NCBI RefSeq assembly: GCF_002237645.1 | Contig: NZ_MJUZ01000050.1 | Coordinates: forward strand, 1-64,000 | From: Desulfovibrio sp. MES5 | GTDB taxonomy: Bacteria; Desulfobacterota; Desulfovibrionia; Desulfovibrionales; Desulfovibrionaceae | Direction: 5' to 3' | DNA: 64,000 nucleotides | Part shown: in pieces, positions 136 through 8,087 of the stretch | Numbering within the stretch: the first letter of the stretch is position 1 | Layout: each line of letters begins with the position of its first letter | Translations under genes and position numbers: made by a program | The notes under the pieces: generated by a model | Seen by the model: the letters and a program-made list of their open reading frames with translations, nothing else | What the model was told of the DNA's origin: nothing | Databases searched by the model: none

Positions 136-919
136 CTTTATGAAGCTCGCTGTGGTATGAGATGTTCGCTGTCCGAGCAGAGGCGCGCGCCATGACCAGG
201 GCATGCCCCTGTTTGCTTCAGAGCCACGGCCCTTTTTTGCGCAAAACGGGGGAGGGACGCCCGGACATGGGTTTTGGAGAGATACATGGGCCTTCTCATG
301 CAAGGGCGGGCATGAGGCCACGTCCGGGGGGGCTCACCGGGGCTGGTCGTGGCAGGCATAAGGGCGTTCTCCTTCAGGGGGACGAGTGCCCTGCGGGCAC
401 GGAGCGGGAGAGGAGGGCAGGCCTCCTGGTACATCGGGAATGTCCTTGTTTGCATGGCCAGAGCATGATCTTTTTTATCTTTTAATTATATTCACTAAGC
501 TGAATTTATTTAATATTTAGCTTCAAGATGTCGCTTCTTGGTAATATTTCTTAAAAAAATATGCCCCGGTAAAAATGGCAAATGGTGCGGTTTTCCAGAG
601 GCCGATTCTGCAAAGCCGCAGTTGCCAAGGGTTTGATCAGTCTTGAAATCATCAGGGCAGTGCGCTAGATTGTAGCTCGCACCAAGGGAGTCATCAGCCA
701 AATATATAAGGCTGCGGAACTTTCAATGGCGGTTCCGGCAGTGTAGTTTTCGGGCAGGGTATAGCTCGCGCCCAGTACTTTTTTGCGGCCTTTTTTTGGA
801 CTTGAGAGAACGCTTTGTAATAAAATTTATCATTAAAAACTGAACTGTTCCCACGAGACTAGGAAGTCTTTTTTGCTTACCCCGATTGACATGATGCAGT
901 TCTTTTGAGATTTTCTAGA
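136..919. other. Gene-free region upstream of nrdD
   Basis: I find no convincing gene here. Positions 140-430 are GC-rich with only overlapping low-quality ORFs. Positions 460-850 are AT-rich. A short hairpin AGACT-agga-AGTCT followed by six T (856-874) could be a weak terminator. A TTGACA at 886-891 with a poor -10 (GATTTT at 909-914) may be the nrdD promoter, because it lies just before the riboswitch; this is low confidence. Confidence 0.4.
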
Positions 920-1075
920 CATTGAAAGCGCCCTATGGGCTTAATAGAGAATCCCGTGAAAAACGGGAGCGGACCCGCCGCCGTAAGCCGCACAAACGCC
1001 GCCTTTCTTCATGCGCCACTGGGGCAATGCCCTGGGAAGGCCGAAAGGCGGTCGGCAAGCCGGAAGACCTGCTTT
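920..1075 (+). promoter_or_regulatory. Cobalamin (B12) riboswitch
   Basis: The conserved blocks of the cobalamin aptamer occur in the right order. They are GGCTTAATAGAGAATCCCGT and GAAAAACGGGAGCGGACCCG with GCCGCCGTAAG, then GCGCCACTGG, CTGGGAAGGCCG, and the B12-box-like AGCCGGAAGACCTGC at 1058-1072. It lies about 230 nt before nrdD on the same strand. In other bacteria this aptamer is known to repress B12-independent isoenzymes when B12 is present. That fits control of a class III reductase in a cell that also has a B12-dependent class II enzyme, which is inferred because none is visible here. The expression platform in 1076-1300 is not obvious to me. Confidence 0.88.
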
Positions 1076-1300
1076 CAACAATACTCAACGGCTGTCGGAT
1101 ATACCCCTCATACAGCCAGATACGGATTGTCGGCACGGGGCCTTTGCCGGCCAATCCTTTGCGGGAGCGACCTGTTCCCGGCTACAGGCTTGCCCCTGGG
1201 TTTACTTACCGCCCCATACGTTACCGGTGTCCCCTTCGTTTGTTTTGCGAACGAACTTTTTCACAGTTGTTTTTCACAGCTCTTATGGGAGTCTTTCTCC

Positions 1301-3556
1301 ATGCCCGCCAGCATCACCAAGCGCGATGGCACGGCAGTGCCTTTTGATTCAGTCAAGATTCTCAACGCCATTACCAAGGCCAACCAGGCCGTTGGCGGTG
1401 AGGATATGTCCCCTACAGACCTTTTGTTTGTCACTGAAAAAGTGTGCAAAAAACTGGATGCCCGAGGCCTCAAGCACGTTGAGGAAATTCAGGATCTTGT
1501 TGAAGAAACGCTGATCCAGTACGACTACGCCAAGACCGCCAAGGCCTACATCCTGTACCGCGCCGAGCATACGAAAATCCGCAACGCGGAATCGTATCTC
1601 ATGGATATCTATAAAAAACTTACGTATTCCCCGGCCATTCACGAAGACATCAAACGTGAAAACGCCAATATTGACGGCGATACCGCCATGGGCACCATGC
1701 TCAAGTACGGGTCCGAAGGTTCCAAGTACTTCATCGACAACTATATTCTGCCCAAGGATGCCTCGGCCGCGCATATCAATGGCGACATCCATATTCATGA
1801 CAAAGATTTCTACATGCTCACGGAAACGTGCTGCCAGATAGATCTTATCCCGCTGTTTAAAAACGGTTTTTCCACAGGACACGGGTATTTGCGCGAACCC
1901 AACGCCATTGAAAGCTATTCGGCCCTGGCCTGCATAGCCATTCAGGCCAACCAGAATGAAATGCACGGCGGTCAGAGTGTGCCGCATTTCGACTTCGCCA
2001 TGGCAGAAGGCGTCATCAAGACGTATCGGCAGGAATACAAAAGGGCCTTCATCTCTTTTGTGCGCATTGCCATGCGTATGGAAGCCCAGGAAGCTGCGGA
2101 TTTTACTGAAAAATTGCTGGCCAGCGTTGACCTCTGCCCGCGCCTTGGCAATATGGAAGAATTTGGCCGCAAGCTTACTCAGGCTGCTTCTGCGGAACAG
2201 AAGGCCATGGTGGGCGATGCTCATGCCTATGCCGCCGATGAAGCCCTGAAATATACCGAGCGCCGCACCTATCAGGCCATGGAAGCTCTTATCCATAACC
2301 TGAACACAATGAACTCGCGTGCAGGGGCTCAGGTGCCCTTCAGTTCCATCAACTATGGCACTGACATCTCCGCCGAAGGGCGCATGGTGAGCAAGAATCT
2401 GCTCAAGGCCACCAAGGCTGGGCTCGGCAACGGGGAGACATCCATCTTTCCCGTGCAGATTTTCAAGGTAAAGTCCGGGGTCAATTACAACAAAGAAGAT
2501 CCCAACTACGACCTTTTTCAATTGGCCATTGATGTTTCAGCCATGCGGCTGTTCCCGAATTTCAGTTTTCTGGATGCTCCGTTCAACCTGCAGTACTACA
2601 CGCCGGGCGACTACAACACCGAAGTGGCCTATATGGGCTGCCGCACGCGGGTTCTCGGCAACGTGTATGACAAGGACAGGCAAGTGACCTGCGGACGCGG
2701 CAACCTGAGCTTTACCTCGATCAATCTTCCCCGGTTGGGCCTTGAGGCCAACGGCGACGTCAAAAAATTCTTTGCCCTGCTGGACGACAGAATTGATCTT
2801 GTTTTTCGCCAGCTTATGCACAGACTCAAAATTCAGAGCTCCAAAAAGGTGCGCAACTATCCCTTCCTCATGGGCGAGGGAATCTGGCTTGATTCCGAAA
2901 AGCTGGACTGGGACGACAGTATTGAAGAAGTCCTGAAGCACGGCACGCTCAGCATGGGTTTCATCGGCGTGGCTGAAGCCCTCATATCCCTGCTTGGCAA
3001 GCACCATGGCGAAAGTGAAGAATCCCAGAAGCTCGGCCTTGAGATCGTCGGCCATATGCGCAAGCGCTGCGATGAAGAGTCGGAAAAGGTCGGCCTGAAC
3101 TTCTCGCTCATCGCCACCCCGGCGGAAAGCCTCAGCGGCCGCTTTGTCTCTCTGGATAAGGCCAAGTTCGGCAGCATTCCCGGCATTACGGACAAGGATT
3201 ACTATACCAATTCCTTCCATGTGCCCGTGTACTGCCATATCAAGGCATTCAGAAAAATCGAGATTGAGGCCCCGTACCATGCGCTGACCAACGCGGGGCA
3301 TATTACCTATGTGGAGCTTGATGGCGATACCTGCAAGAATCCAGAAGCCTTTGAAAGCATTATCCGCTTCATGCACGATCAGGGTGTAGGTTATGGATCG
3401 GTCAACCATCCGCTTGATCGTGACCCTCTGTGCGGATATGTGGGCGTCATCAATGACTGCTGCCCACGGTGCGGCCGCAAGGAAGGCGAGGGCGTCAGCC
3501 CCGAGCTTCTTGACGAGCTGCGCAAAAAGTATCCCCATATTCCCAAATGGAGCTAG
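1301..3556 (+). CDS. nrdD: Anaerobic (class III) ribonucleoside-triphosphate reductase, large part without the glycyl-radical domain
   Basis: A 751-residue protein that reduces ribonucleotides to deoxyribonucleotides anaerobically in the cytoplasm. Residues 1-95 form an ATP-cone (starts MPASITKRDGTAVPFD). The catalytic barrel includes C177-C178 before QIDL. The C-terminus has a zinc-site region with C711, C720, C721 and C724 (DRDPLCGYVG and CCPRCGRKEG). Family members normally continue directly into an RRITGY-type radical loop. Here the protein instead ends with about 20 unrelated residues finishing in HIPKWS. The radical domain is found in the next ORF at 3757. I chose ATG 1301, preceded by GGGAG, because the longer open frame from 935 runs through the riboswitch. 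The gene is followed by the small ORF and nrdG. Confidence 0.93.
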   Translation: MPASITKRDGTAVPFDSVKILNAITKANQAVGGEDMSPTDLLFVTEKVCKKLDARGLKHVEEIQDLVEETLIQYDYAKTAKAYILYRAEHTKIRNAESYLMDIYKKLTYSPAIHEDIKRENANIDGDTAMGTMLKYGSEGSKYFIDNYILPKDASAAHINGDIHIHDKDFYMLTETCCQIDLIPLFKNGFSTGHGYLREPNAIESYSALACIAIQANQNEMHGGQSVPHFDFAMAEGVIKTYRQEYKRAFISFVRIAMRMEAQEAADFTEKLLASVDLCPRLGNMEEFGRKLTQAASAEQKAMVGDAHAYAADEALKYTERRTYQAMEALIHNLNTMNSRAGAQVPFSSINYGTDISAEGRMVSKNLLKATKAGLGNGETSIFPVQIFKVKSGVNYNKEDPNYDLFQLAIDVSAMRLFPNFSFLDAPFNLQYYTPGDYNTEVAYMGCRTRVLGNVYDKDRQVTCGRGNLSFTSINLPRLGLEANGDVKKFFALLDDRIDLVFRQLMHRLKIQSSKKVRNYPFLMGEGIWLDSEKLDWDDSIEEVLKHGTLSMGFIGVAEALISLLGKHHGESEESQKLGLEIVGHMRKRCDEESEKVGLNFSLIATPAESLSGRFVSLDKAKFGSIPGITDKDYYTNSFHVPVYCHIKAFRKIEIEAPYHALTNAGHITYVELDGDTCKNPEAFESIIRFMHDQGVGYGSVNHPLDRDPLCGYVGVINDCCPRCGRKEGEGVSPELLDELRKKYPHIPKWS

Positions 3557-3756
3557 GGCTATTCGCCCTGAAAGCTCCGGCGACTGCGCGTGTGAGCGTC
3601 CGCTACTGGAATTCCTTTGCCGGAGCGCGGTGGAAAAATTTTGAGAGCGCATGCTCTCAAAGCTGAAAAGTTCATGTTGTTTGCTGTTATGGCGGCCGCC
3701 CCGGCGGCCCGCCTGAACCTCATACTTATTATTTATTACGTGCAAGGAGAAAGTCT
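3557..3756 (+). other. Spacer with perfect 20-nt palindrome between the two nrdD pieces
   Basis: The 200-nt spacer contains the perfect palindrome TTGAGAGCGCATGCTCTCAA at 3641-3660. A GC-rich inverted segment follows near 3690-3712 (GGCGGCCGCC, then CGGCGGCCCG). It ends in AAGGAGA, a strong ribosome binding site six bases before the ATG at 3757. There is no in-frame continuation of nrdD here, so the split is not a simple frameshift. Confidence 0.7.
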
Positions 3757-3927
3757 ATGTTGATGAAATCGCGTTTGTTTGACGAAGTGAAGCCCGCGCA
3801 GAAGCTTGTGGGTCAGGGCATGACTTTTGAACGCACCCGCCGCATCACCGGCTATCTTGTGGGTACGCTGGACCGTTTTAACAATGCCAAACGGGCTGAG
3901 GAACGTGACAGGGTCAAGCATGCCTAA
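3757..3927 (+). CDS. Stand-alone glycyl-radical domain of class III ribonucleotide reductase
   Basis: A 56-residue protein. Residues 24-55 (from FERTRRITGYLVG on to DRVKH) match the C-terminal radical domain normally fused to NrdD, where a sequence like RRVCGYLG or RRITGYLVG carries the radical glycine. The equivalent here is G32. The first 20 residues (MLMKSRLFDEVKPAQKLVGQ) are not part of the standard domain and may be a docking segment. An excellent ribosome binding site (AAGGAGA) precedes it, and its 3' end overlaps nrdG by 8 nt. I infer that it binds the large NrdD protein and is activated in trans by NrdG, much as YfiD-type spare parts rescue pyruvate formate-lyase. Confidence 0.85.
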   Translation: MLMKSRLFDEVKPAQKLVGQGMTFERTRRITGYLVGTLDRFNNAKRAEERDRVKHA

Positions 3928-4456
3928 TGATGCGTCTTTGCAGCCCATGCGCCTGTCCGGCATTGTGGAGGAATCCATAGTTGACGGGCCGGGGTTGCGA
4001 TACGTTCTGTTTACCCAGGGTTGTCCGCACCGCTGCAAGGGGTGCCACAATCCGCAGACACACAGCTTTGAGGGCGGCTTTCTTTTTACAGTAGAAGAGG
4101 CGCTCAGGCAGTTTGACGAAAATCCCCTGCTAGCGGGGGTGACCCTTTCCGGAGGCGAACCATTTGCCCAGGCGGCCCCCTTGTGCTCAGTGGCACAGGG
4201 GGTGCGCGGCAAGGGCAAGACCGTGATTACCTACACGGGGTATACCTTTGAGGAATTGTGGCGGCGCGCTCAGGATGACGCCTGGACCGCACGCCTGCTG
4301 GATCTAACAGACCTCTTGATTGACGGCCCTTATATGGAAGAGCTGCGCGATCTGGAGCTGCTTTTCAGAGGAAGCGGCAATCAGCGTCTTTTGAGCAAAA
4401 AAGACCGTGAAAACATTGCGGCGGAGCTTGAAAGGTCGGAAGATCCTCCGCAGTAG
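3920..4456 (+). CDS. nrdG: Anaerobic ribonucleotide reductase activating enzyme, radical SAM
   Basis: A 178-residue radical-SAM protein that uses a 4Fe-4S cluster and S-adenosylmethionine to make the glycyl radical in NrdD. The CxxxCxxC motif is visible as CPHRCKGCHNPQ near residue 30. The family motifs SIVDGPGLRYVLFTQGC and TLSGGEPF are also present. ATG 3920 is chosen because it overlaps the upstream glycyl-radical ORF (ends 3927) and gives the normal family N-terminus. The longer open frame from 3827 lies inside that ORF. Overlap indicates translational coupling of the activase with its radical-bearing substrate. Confidence 0.93.
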   Translation: MPNDASLQPMRLSGIVEESIVDGPGLRYVLFTQGCPHRCKGCHNPQTHSFEGGFLFTVEEALRQFDENPLLAGVTLSGGEPFAQAAPLCSVAQGVRGKGKTVITYTGYTFEELWRRAQDDAWTARLLDLTDLLIDGPYMEELRDLELLFRGSGNQRLLSKKDRENIAAELERSEDPPQ

Positions 4457-4675: not shown

Positions 4676-5743
4676 TCAGTTCTTGTCCTCTGTTGCGCTG
4701 TTGTCCCTTTTCAGCGTGATGCCGTGATGCTGCGCCACGTAAGGTGCAAAGGACACATCCATGCCCTGAATATGCTCAATGAGCCATGTTTTTAAAAATT
4801 CCAGCAGGGCTTGGTCCACATCAGCCTTGCCTTGCAGCAATGCTTCACGAAAGAGCACAAGTTTATTTTTAAATGCCTGATGCTCCTCAATATGTTCCTT
4901 GCTGCAAGGATAGTCGGAGTAGGCAAAGAAAATTTCTTCAGTAGTAAAGTGGGTAAAGGCGTAGCCAGCCAGTGAATCGAGAATTTCCAGAAGAAGGGCG
5001 GAATCACGGCCTTGCCGAAGGCCATTATGCAGCCTGTTTACGTATGAAAGCAGCAGCTTGTGTTGGCCGTCAATAACGGGCACCCCGGTGGAATAGCTGG
5101 GCGTCCATTGAAAGAACTCTTCTTCCTGCGCAGTTTTCGTCTGAATGGAGGCGGCAGGCGTATCACCAAGAAAGGCGTTCATCTGGGCCAGGTAGTTTTC
5201 GCAATATTCCAGCTCTGCCGCCACCTTGTCCAGCCATTGGGTGGTGAGCCCACCAAAAAAAGCCGTTTCCGCAAGTCCCGGGCAAATACCGGCAAGCTTG
5301 CGTTCCTGTTCTGCCTGATCGGCCGCCAGCACGCGCAGTTTGCGCGCGGCCTCGTGCAGGCTGTCCTTGGTCATGGCCTGACCTGACATGGCGAGGGTGT
5401 ATTTTTCATGGCATTCGGCGGCATCCTGCCGCATTTTGTCCAGGTCACGCCGGGCGGACGCGAGCTCACGGGTATGAGCTTCGCCGTGTGCGGCCATAAG
5501 TTCGGCCATGTGGCATAAGGACCCACAATCAGAGGCATGCGGAAGGTGAAGCGTGCCGGGTTTCCTGAGGCTGCTGCAAATGTTTTTAAAAGGTTTGAGC
5601 AGGTCTCGGTAAAGAAGAAAAAGCCCGCCAAAGCCGCAGACAAGCCCAGCCATACCCGCGACAAATGACAGTGGCGGGGAGAGGAGCAGCCCCAGTACGC
5701 TGATGGCTGGCGAAGCAGCTAAAAGAATAAAGAAAGCGGGCAT
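4676..5743 (-). CDS. Membrane-anchored hemerythrin-domain protein
   Basis: A 355-residue protein with two N-terminal hydrophobic segments (about 4-22 and 27-46), a helical, partly charged linker (about 85-150) and a C-terminal bacteriohemerythrin domain (about 212-342). All seven diiron ligands can be assigned: H228 (IDGQH), H265 and E269 (HFTTE), H284 and H288 (HIEEH), H324 and D329. Hemerythrins bind O2 reversibly at a non-heme diiron site. In anaerobes they are used for O2 sensing or delivery. No methyl-accepting, GGDEF or kinase domain is present, so the output is unknown. A long leader with a possible RNA structure precedes it (5877-5961). Start ATG 5743. Confidence 0.85.
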   Translation of the reverse strand: MPAFFILLAASPAISVLGLLLSPPLSFVAGMAGLVCGFGGLFLLYRDLLKPFKNICSSLRKPGTLHLPHASDCGSLCHMAELMAAHGEAHTRELASARRDLDKMRQDAAECHEKYTLAMSGQAMTKDSLHEAARKLRVLAADQAEQERKLAGICPGLAETAFFGGLTTQWLDKVAAELEYCENYLAQMNAFLGDTPAASIQTKTAQEEEFFQWTPSYSTGVPVIDGQHKLLLSYVNRLHNGLRQGRDSALLLEILDSLAGYAFTHFTTEEIFFAYSDYPCSKEHIEEHQAFKNKLVLFREALLQGKADVDQALLEFLKTWLIEHIQGMDVSFAPYVAQHHGITLKRDNSATEDKN

Positions 5744-6091: not shown

Positions 6092-7246
6092 CTAGTTCTT
6101 GAATGGTGAAATGGCTCTGAGAGTTTCAATGACCTGCGGGAAATGCTCAATCACAAAATTAACATCGTCTTCAGTGGTGTAGCGCGACAGGGAGAGACGG
6201 ATTGAGCCGTGCGCGTAGTTGAAGGGAACGCCCATGGCGCGAAGCACATGTGAAGGTTCCAGACTGCCGGACGTGCAGGCAGATCCGGAACTGGCACAGA
6301 TGCCCAGCCTGTCGAGCATGAGCAGGATGGCCTCGCCCTCAACATTCTTGAAGGAAATGTTGGAGGTGTTGGGCAGGCGGTTTTCCACATCGCCATTGAC
6401 CATGCAGTCGGGGATGCGCTCAAGAAGGCCTGCTTCCAGTTTGTCGCGCAGCATGGCCACCTGCACGCGCTCTTCCTGCATATGGTCCAGCGCCAGTTGC
6501 GCGGCAACGCCCATGCCCACGATGTAGGGCACGTTTTCCGTGCCGGCCCGGCGTCCCCTTTCCTGATGCCCGCCGCGCAGGAAGGGGCGGAAGCGCACGC
6601 CCTTGCGGATGTACAGGGCGCCTATGCCCTTGGGCGCGTGCAGCTTGTGCCCGGAAAGCGAGAGCATGTCTGCGGGCAGATGACTGAGGTCAATGGGGGT
6701 CTTGCCCACAGCCTGCACCGCGTCGGTATGAAAAAGTACGCCCTTTTCGCGGGCCATCTCGGCCATGCGCTGGATGGGGTAGATATTGCCCACTTCGTTG
6801 TTGGCAAACATGATGGACACAAGCGCCGTGTCTTCAGACAGGGCCTGTGCGTACTCGTTCATATCAAGTCTGCCCTTGTTGTCAACGGCAAGATAGGTGA
6901 CGTGATAGCCGTGACGCTCCCAGTGCTGCATGACGTTGAGCACGGCAGGATGTTCCACGCGGGTGGTGATGAGGTGGCGTTTTTCAGGCTGGGTTTGAAT
7001 GGCCGTCCAGATGGCGGAGTTGTCGCTTTCAGAGCCGCAGGAGGTGAACAGGATTTCGTCCGCGCTGGCTCCCAGAAGGTTGGCCAGGCTTTCCCGGGCG
7101 GCGTCCACGGCGTCGGCTACCTGCCCGCCAAAGGTGTGCATGCTGGAGGGATTGCCATAGAGGTCAGTAAGGTAGGGCAGCATGGCGTCCCGAACTTCGG
7201 GCGCCACCGCCGTAGTGGCATTGTTGTCCAGATAGATGGTTCTCAT
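6092..7246 (-). CDS. nifS: Cysteine desulfurase, NifS/IscS type
   Basis: A 384-residue PLP enzyme that takes sulfur from cysteine and hands it as persulfide to the NifU scaffold. K201 in SLSGHKLHAPKG is the PLP lysine, and C324 in SSGSACTSGSLEPSHVL is the persulfide cysteine. The N-terminus MRTIYLDNNATT is standard. ATG 7246 is chosen over a TTG at 7264 because GAGGAGG precedes it and the family N-terminus begins there. It starts 4 nt after the nifU stop, so iscR-nifU-nifS is an operon. Confidence 0.95.
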   Translation of the reverse strand: MRTIYLDNNATTAVAPEVRDAMLPYLTDLYGNPSSMHTFGGQVADAVDAARESLANLLGASADEILFTSCGSESDNSAIWTAIQTQPEKRHLITTRVEHPAVLNVMQHWERHGYHVTYLAVDNKGRLDMNEYAQALSEDTALVSIMFANNEVGNIYPIQRMAEMAREKGVLFHTDAVQAVGKTPIDLSHLPADMLSLSGHKLHAPKGIGALYIRKGVRFRPFLRGGHQERGRRAGTENVPYIVGMGVAAQLALDHMQEERVQVAMLRDKLEAGLLERIPDCMVNGDVENRLPNTSNISFKNVEGEAILLMLDRLGICASSGSACTSGSLEPSHVLRAMGVPFNYAHGSIRLSLSRYTTEDDVNFVIEHFPQVIETLRAISPFKN

Positions 7247-7250
7247 GGCC

Positions 7251-8087
7251 TTATGCCTCCTCAACCACTAGGTCGGGTTCCACATTTTCACGCAAAAGGC
7301 GCTGCACCAGGTCGCGGATGGTCACATCGCTGGAGCGGCATTGAGCGCAGCGTCCGCGCAGCGAGACCACCACGCGCATGCCGTCCACGTCCACCAGTTC
7401 AATGTCGCCGCCGTCGGCCGCAAGCAGAGGCTTGATTTCTTCTTCAATGGTCTTGAGCACCAGTTGCATGCGCTGCACATTGGTCATCCGCGGCTTGGGC
7501 TTCAATTCCACCAGGGGCTTCTGCTTGAGTTCGGCCGCGAGAATCTCGCCGATTTCATCCAGGCATTCGCCGCATGCGCCGCCAGCCTTGGTGTAGTTTG
7601 TAACCTCTTCAACGGTCTTGAGCCCGTTTTCGCGGATGGCGCGGATGATCTGGGCATCGGTCACGCCGAAACACTTACAGACAAGCTTGCCTTCTTCATG
7701 GGCGTGCGGCACAGGGGGTTCGCCCTTCCACTGCCGGATGGCGGCCTCCAGCGCTTCCTGCCCCATGACGGAGCAGTGCATCTTTTGCTTGGGCAACCCG
7801 CCAAGAGCATTGGCAATATCCTTATTGCTGATCTTGAGCGCATCTTCCACAGACATGCCCTTGATCATGTCAGTAAGTACGGAACTGGAGGCAATGGCGC
7901 TGGCGCAACCAAAGGTTTCAAAGGTTGCGTCCTCGATTATGCCCTGATCGTTGATCTTGAGATAGAGCTTGAGAGCGTCGCCGCAGGCCAGACTACCTAC
8001 TTCGCCGATGGCGTTGGCCCCTTCCAGCGGGCCCACGTTGTGGGGGCGCAGAAAATGGTCATGTACGGCTTCAGTGTAATTCCACAT
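7251..8087 (-). CDS. nifU: Fe-S cluster assembly scaffold NifU, three-domain form
   Basis: A 278-residue scaffold. Residues 1-125 are an IscU-like domain with C35, C61 and C105. Residues 134-180 are a BFD-like [2Fe-2S] domain (C137, C139, C172, C175). Residues 205-278 are an Nfu domain with the C247-x2-C250 pair (GRCAQC). It receives sulfur from NifS and assembles clusters for transfer. The 5' end overlaps the upstream iscR by 17 nt. No nitrogenase genes are in the window, so a housekeeping Isc role is inferred, as is usual in sulfate reducers. Confidence 0.95.
   Translation of the reverse strand: MWNYTEAVHDHFLRPHNVGPLEGANAIGEVGSLACGDALKLYLKINDQGIIEDATFETFGCASAIASSSVLTDMIKGMSVEDALKISNKDIANALGGLPKQKMHCSVMGQEALEAAIRQWKGEPPVPHAHEEGKLVCKCFGVTDAQIIRAIRENGLKTVEEVTNYTKAGGACGECLDEIGEILAAELKQKPLVELKPKPRMTNVQRMQLVLKTIEEEIKPLLAADGGDIELVDVDGMRVVVSLRGRCAQCRSSDVTIRDLVQRLLRENVEPDLVVEEA

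Follow-up and report, generated by a model that had tools for sequence, protein, structure and literature searches.

The split nrdD locus

How can a class III ribonucleotide reductase work when its NrdD chain ends before the glycyl radical domain (GRD)? The question was raised by a locus in the window (the whole stretch of 64,000 nucleotides analyzed), where the first-pass annotation had described a 751-residue NrdD without a GRD, a 200-nt spacer, and a 56-residue ORF with a ribosome site and an overlap with nrdG. All of these were found in the sequence (Table 1), and the operon order is riboswitch - nrdD - GRD - nrdG.

Table 1. Features of the nrdD operon, with positions in the window
Feature	Position	Strand	Evidence
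Cobalamin riboswitch, upstream of nrdD	909..1090	+	Rfam RF00174, 92.3 bits, full model 1-189
nrdD core, class III reductase without GRD, 751 aa	1301..3556	+	NF005497, 1058.8 bits; PF13597 1-531/562
ATP cone, core residues 5-91	1313..1573	+	PF03477, 75.6 bits
C-terminal tail of the core, residues 727-751, KEGEGVSPELLDELRKKYPHIPKWS, occupying the place of the GRD	3479..3553	+	Alignment with fused relatives
Spacer, no GRD coding, 200 nt, length variable among relatives	3557..3756	+	
AAGGAG, ribosome-site-like, before the small ORF	3744..3749	+	
Free-standing GRD, 56 aa; Gly32 codon 3850-3852	3757..3927	+	PF13597 533-562; 8p23 alignment; pN/pS
nrdG, radical SAM activase overlapping the GRD gene by 8 nt	3920..4456	+	TIGR02491, 137.3 bits, cut-off 126.1

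The core scored 612.9 bits with PF13597 and carries the NrdD catalytic domain with radical cysteine and flap (C447 and N121/N123 invariant). An ATP cone is present together with the NrdD domain, and the chain ends after the zinc region; no GRD follows in the same chain, the match of the core stopping at position 531 of 562 while positions 533-562 are found in the other ORF. Catalytic and zinc residues (N121, N123, C177, C447, C711, C721, C724) were invariant across 22 split cores. When the core was modeled alone, pLDDT was 81.5, the best PDB match was 8p2c (P. copri NrdD, 40% identity), and the tail formed a short helix of low confidence. Aspartate in place of the first zinc-site cysteine was considered as a mark of the split form and rejected, as fused relatives have it too.

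Two comparisons agreed with the earlier proposal that the small ORF is the missing radical domain, with its glycine at residue 32. Residues 24-55 matched PF13597 positions 533-562 (31.0 bits vs. a curated cut-off of 26.2), and the ORF also aligned with residues 707-738 of the solved P. copri NrdD 8p23 (E 3.8e-7), where Gly32 pairs with the radical glycine Gly711 if an inferred offset of 4 in the 8p23 chain numbering is assumed. Gly711 is given as the radical glycine of P. copri NrdD in the accessible part of PMC11226230. The pN/pS of the GRD was 0.083 vs. 0.348 for the N-terminal extension (10 distinct relatives, 44 pairs), a ribosome-site-like word stood upstream of the GRD gene in 10/10 distinct genes examined, and standalone proteins of equal length are known, with up to 98% identity to the 56-residue GRD; the ORF is thus more than a chance reading frame. 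Some databases name 55-residue proteins of this kind 'anaerobic ribonucleoside-triphosphate reductase'. The activase gene nrdG is in the same operon, and its TIGR02491 score is above the cut-off. Just downstream of nrdG, on the opposite strand, lies an ORF (4676-5743, -) whose C-terminal half we take to be bacteriohemerythrin-like, that is, presumably an oxygen-binding protein beside an oxygen-sensitive enzyme. Two ORFs at 6092-8087 (-) presumably resemble NifS- and NifU-type iron-sulphur assembly proteins.

A second full-length nrdD elsewhere had been named as something to look for. The whole genome was searched with PF13597, and one core and one GRD were found, both at this locus, with no second nrdD and no full-length NrdD. 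The GRD is therefore read as the obligate radical part here and not as an optional spare. The genome also encodes the B12-dependent class II reductase NrdJ; for D. vulgaris, the available sections of PMC545781 describe a B12 element that precedes nrdDG, NrdJ being the alternative enzyme.

Core and GRD as separate products

Across 95 distinct operons, the distance from the core stop to the GRD motif was 43-356 nt, and the GRD lay in the three possible frames relative to the core in 33, 32 and 30 operons, counted on distinct cores with near-duplicate loci excluded. Core and GRD of the window are in different reading frames, and in same-frame operons one or more stop codons stand between the two. 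The view of the first-pass annotation that the break is not a sequencing frameshift was borne out, since related genomes are also split and the frames are random; no GRD coding was found in the spacer that it had called noncoding, and both pieces keep a linker at the break.

A single NrdD chain restored by an intron, an intein, a programmed frameshift or stop-codon readthrough was judged hardly credible. The accessible parts of PMC3653736 and PMC12363816 report that introns and inteins often interrupt nrdD in phages, and in some operons core and GRD do share a frame with one stop between them. Against such a chain, no intron family was found in the window among Rfam matches at the gathering threshold, the GRD gene starts independently behind a ribosome site of its own, and in six genomes it lies on another contig, where neither frameshift nor readthrough can join the pieces. 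Frameshift, readthrough and splicing are poor explanations because of the random frames and the GRD on another contig, and on these grounds, together with the lack of an Rfam intron, sequencing error, frameshift, readthrough and an intron or intein were rejected.

The split within the genus

The 56-residue query matched in 47/61 genus genomes and PF13597 in 57/61. Arrangements were typed in 55 genomes, with two that held N-terminal pieces only being excluded: core and GRD were side by side in 35, a core was without an adjacent GRD match in 11, full-length NrdD alone was present in seven, and a GRD alone in two. Of the seven full-length NrdDs, L202 and L203 were inspected; both belong to a different NrdD type, with VVGYLRP at the end. 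Extra GRDs were found in 13 of the 35 genomes with a split operon. Two lone GRDs in one single-contig genome (G167; L071, L072) are identical in sequence and lie by tail genes, and it is these tail genes whose downstream parts differ.

Six of the 11 genomes (G183, G175, G201, G170, G158 and G196) have nrdG starting within about 20 nt of the nrdD end, with no GRD between the two genes; in each of them a second contig carries the GRD ORF intact. A neighbor of the 6-phosphogluconolactonase family was common to 5/9 distant GRD loci compared. In the loci scanned, a GGDEF protein was encoded near the distant GRD, as was a MiaB-like radical SAM protein; the surroundings of the five loci that share this neighborhood are chromosomal, not phage. 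All six genomes are draft assemblies, in which a binning error is possible in one, but the same error in five is not credible given the shared neighborhood. From gene location, the GRD gene on another contig is regarded as the strongest evidence for action in trans. In the rest of the 11 genomes, the absence of a GRD neighbor is, or may be, due to contig ends or, in G150, to a broken copy. In G150 (L352, L354), the GRD and nrdG behind nrdD are broken, and an intact GRD-nrdG pair lies on another contig with no core near.

Distribution beyond the genus

Conservation in related genomes, which the first-pass annotation had left to be checked, was found in the genus, in the family and beyond. A single-sequence search of 395 phylum genomes found the GRD piece in 12, all of the same genus, but this search was too insensitive, and later searches reached further. 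Within the family, split operons were present in at least 11/44 sampled genera (this genus and ten more), with 149 genomes searched and 39 genomes among the matches listed followed up. The search of named genomes gave 588 matches. In the best 80, a list biased toward split forms, a small GRD ORF accompanied an NrdD core within one stretch in 63 cases, 13 were fused and 4 were lone GRDs; titles in this list include Bacilli, Clostridia, Butyricicoccus, Mogibacterium, Massiliimalia timonensis (an isolate) and Anaerobiospirillum. Two samples were less biased. The order of an Erysipelotrichaceae genome, within the Bacilli, had the split in 17/60 genomes (the starting genome included), with three more in which the match ran across a stop. 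In the Clostridia sample, where 72 genomes had a match, the split was seen in the chosen center and possibly in a single other genome. The distribution of the split is patchy, common in some groups and rare in others. In three genomes (G649, G655, G725), a fused NrdD of the same type is accompanied by an additional lone GRD, as would be expected of a true spare part.

GRDs in phages and prophages

In the viral collection, 427 stretches encode a GRD relative. Among the best 80 of these, the fetched stretch showed a small GRD ORF but lacked an NrdD core in 71 cases (62 distinct proteins); a core with a separate GRD was seen in 5, and a fused NrdD in 4. Whole records were searched for 50 of these 80 virus loci (the 30 omitted include the fused NrdDs of L143, L146, L155 and L163), and a GRD without a core was found in 45/50 records, none of which was rated at least 90% complete. 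Virus records with an NrdD core and a separate GRD were L157, L144, L109, L100 and L158; that of L157 has core, GRD and nrdG in the order of the window. Deposited phage records gave 14 matches in 50,697, none over 80% of the query, and in Eggerthella phage EL753P1 the match is unannotated and slightly downstream of the annotated nrdD.

Five prophage GRD loci of the genus were scanned with PHROGs, and phage genes surrounded the GRD in each: a RusA resolvase and an endolysin with the GRD between them, a phage with a transposase, two baseplate genes likewise on either side, a terminase, and nearby tail fiber genes (one locus each). No constant gene was found beside phage GRDs in the loci compared, and the PHROGs scan gave no separate family for the GRD. 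The presence of the GRD in unrelated phages at unrelated places suggests repeated gain under selection. Across 71 phage rows, the residues outside the search motif were highly conserved (F 99%, N 100%, K 100%, E 100%, R 100%, H 99%); the rows had been chosen by a motif that contains the radical glycine, so conservation of the glycine in them is no evidence. Departures from the compact form were also seen: a prophage-type GRD ORF (L082:9904-10140) has ~27 residues inserted between RRI and TGYLVG, before the radical loop, and two viral GRDs (L147:4272-4838 and L149:3855-4421) continue for ~140 further residues in the same ORF. The phage copies, which the first-pass annotation had not seen, are the best sign that the GRD may be exchangeable.

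Origin of the split

The linker sequences of the two pieces were compared with those of fused relatives. Fused relatives read CPxCGR-(4-8 residues)-FERIRRITGYLVG, split cores read CPRCGR-xEGEGV and then a different tail, and free GRDs have a variable start followed by VGxGVxFERxRR; both pieces thus retain the linker. A profile of 33 fused GRDs was used to score 99 distinct split tails (101 minus L337 and L341, which are real GRDs of another NrdD type), and 17/99 outscored all 200 of their own shuffles. The best-scoring tails were from other genera of the family and align over most of the GRD, e.g., GEGISLERLRAVKGYVTDYLTPEERREEEDKISH (L172). The core tail of the window had no detectable similarity to the fused-GRD profile, with 109/200 shuffles scoring as high. 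Some related cores, unlike that of the window, end in a detectable decayed GRD. A free GRD that came first, followed by decay of the attached one, would be the simplest account, and the same course is inferred for the window.

For 150 distinct cores (99 split, 33 fused, 18 other), a quickly built tree required 10 changes of the split label, at least 7 of which were forced by well supported branches. Gains and losses of the split are indistinguishable in this tree, as sampling favors split forms and the tree has no established root. The small-domain tree was poorly resolved (3/208 branches starred), so phage and host GRD copies cannot be ordered.

Proposed mechanism and alternative explanations

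What the sequences themselves show is that the enzyme is split, that the split is conserved, that both parts are under selection, that the GRD gene of some genomes lies apart from the core, and that phages carry copies; a GRD acting in trans is the best reading of the split. It is very probable that the locus encodes a two-piece class III ribonucleotide reductase, made of an NrdD core and an obligate GRD subunit, with the split produced by decay and the phage GRDs serving the NrdD of the host. The 751-residue NrdD would supply the ATP cone, barrel, radical cysteine (Cys447, in MGCR) and zinc region, and the 56-residue protein, translated on its own, would be the glycyl radical subunit that the enzyme requires. 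On the basis of known class III chemistry, NrdG would make the radical on Gly32 and the RITGYLVG loop would dock in the barrel beside Cys447, with catalysis then presumably as in an ordinary NrdD. The MGCR motif points to formate as the probable reductant, by a rule given in the accessible part of PMC9669993. In a joined model (core and GRD of a relative, connected via the native spacer), the GRD was not placed (pLDDT about 30-37), and the alignment was shallow and misaligned there. The split may have been gained or lost repeatedly; the likeliest occasion is the presence of a free GRD copy, which would allow the domain at the NrdD end to decay. The small protein standing alone elsewhere in some genomes and in phages suggests that the radical part is supplied separately, and the lone GRDs of phages and prophages would probably fit the host NrdD and sustain anaerobic dNTP synthesis in infected cells. 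More speculatively, the small subunit could be exchanged after damage, as in pyruvate formate-lyase, with phage copies acting on the host enzyme; repair of oxygen damage by swapping of the GRD would follow by analogy with YfiD.

Other functions of the small protein were weighed against this two-piece enzyme. That it is an optional spare, as YfiD is for pyruvate formate-lyase, with a full-length NrdD as the normal partner, would suit the fused NrdD and further lone GRD of G649, G655 and G725; this genome has no full-length NrdD, so the piece is not optional here, and the idea was held to be quite improbable. Of what the first-pass annotation had proposed, the real split and the separate radical-domain gene stand, as does action in trans if the enzyme works, a point made much stronger by the six genomes with the GRD on another contig. 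Its idea of repair by swapping would be an analogy with YfiD, and this genome has no full-length NrdD to repair. For phage GRDs in hosts with a fused NrdD, the spare-part reading stays open. It is very improbable that the split enzyme is a relic, with NrdD inactive and the class II NrdJ doing the work: NrdJ is encoded in the genome, and the cobalamin riboswitch means that the nrdD operon may be off when B12 is present, but the catalytic residues are invariant in the split cores, purifying selection on the GRD is strong, and the split arrangement persists across genera and phyla. Phage GRDs as decoys that block the host NrdD or NrdG were considered unlikely, as the residues outside the motif are conserved in the way expected of a working domain and phages need dNTPs, although a small domain could in principle compete for the barrel or for NrdG.

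Beyond the two-piece enzyme itself, a broader proposal is made tentatively, at somewhat short of even confidence. The GRDs could form a class of free, mobile subunits, obligate in bacteria with a split enzyme, whose versions in several types of phage dock on the host NrdD and either replace spent or oxygen-cut GRDs or lower the sensitivity to dATP shut-off, so that the host reductase works for the phage. In P. copri NrdD, dATP shut-off works by loosening the GRD, according to the portion of PMC11226230 available.

Relation to known systems

The NrdD/NrdG systems of P. copri, S. thermophilus and phage T4 share with this locus the catalytic core, the ATP cone, the operon with NrdG and the sequence of the GRD. 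Their solved structures show the GRD at the C-terminus of the NrdD chain itself, unlike the 56-residue protein encoded separately here. YfiD/GrcA and phage T4 Y06I, which act on pyruvate formate-lyase, are likewise small free GRDs on a larger partner, found in bacteria and phage (PMC8683613, accessible part). They repair a full-length enzyme cut by oxygen (same sections of PMC8683613), while the NrdD here never has its own GRD, and no full-length NrdD partner is present in the genome. YfiD/GrcA is of the PFL family and the GRD here of PF13597; homology to a PFL-type GRD was not found for the small ORF, which matched PF13597 and, weakly and below cut-off, one other Pfam family. According to the text available of PMC8683613, validation of spare parts was lacking for other glycyl radical enzymes.

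The split class II reductase NrdJa/NrdJb also has two chains and is divided near the C-terminus, but as a class II enzyme it has no glycyl radical, and its separated part is IscU-like with a zinc finger (available sections of PMC9669993). Phage nrdD genes fragmented by introns, inteins and homing endonucleases are also in pieces (PMC3653736 and PMC12363816, as far as these are accessible), and Jug phages have a boundary between a 230-aa and a 91-aa nrdD fragment without splicing (same two sources, in part). Those breaks are ascribed to mobile elements in the accessible parts of PMC3653736 and PMC12363816; the split seen here falls at a single domain boundary and is met repeatedly in different phyla, and the detached piece can be located elsewhere in the genome. 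No description of a free NrdD GRD was found in the open-access papers searched. The sequences are already known, and as far as the searches of that literature tell, the arrangement has not been described; a class III reductase with YfiD-like logic is probably new.

Significance

The annotated 55-residue 'NrdD' fragments in these genomes are to be read as real genes. If the two-piece reading is true, a class III reductase runs with its radical on a 55-residue exchangeable subunit, and activation, docking and regulation of the radical domain would be directly studiable apart from the core. The idea of a spare part, validated so far for pyruvate formate-lyase alone (PMC8683613, accessible part), would gain a second enzyme, one in which the small partner is obligatory. 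A small phage gene, without a PHROGs family of its own in the scan, would then be a way in which gut phages may control the dNTP supply of their hosts.
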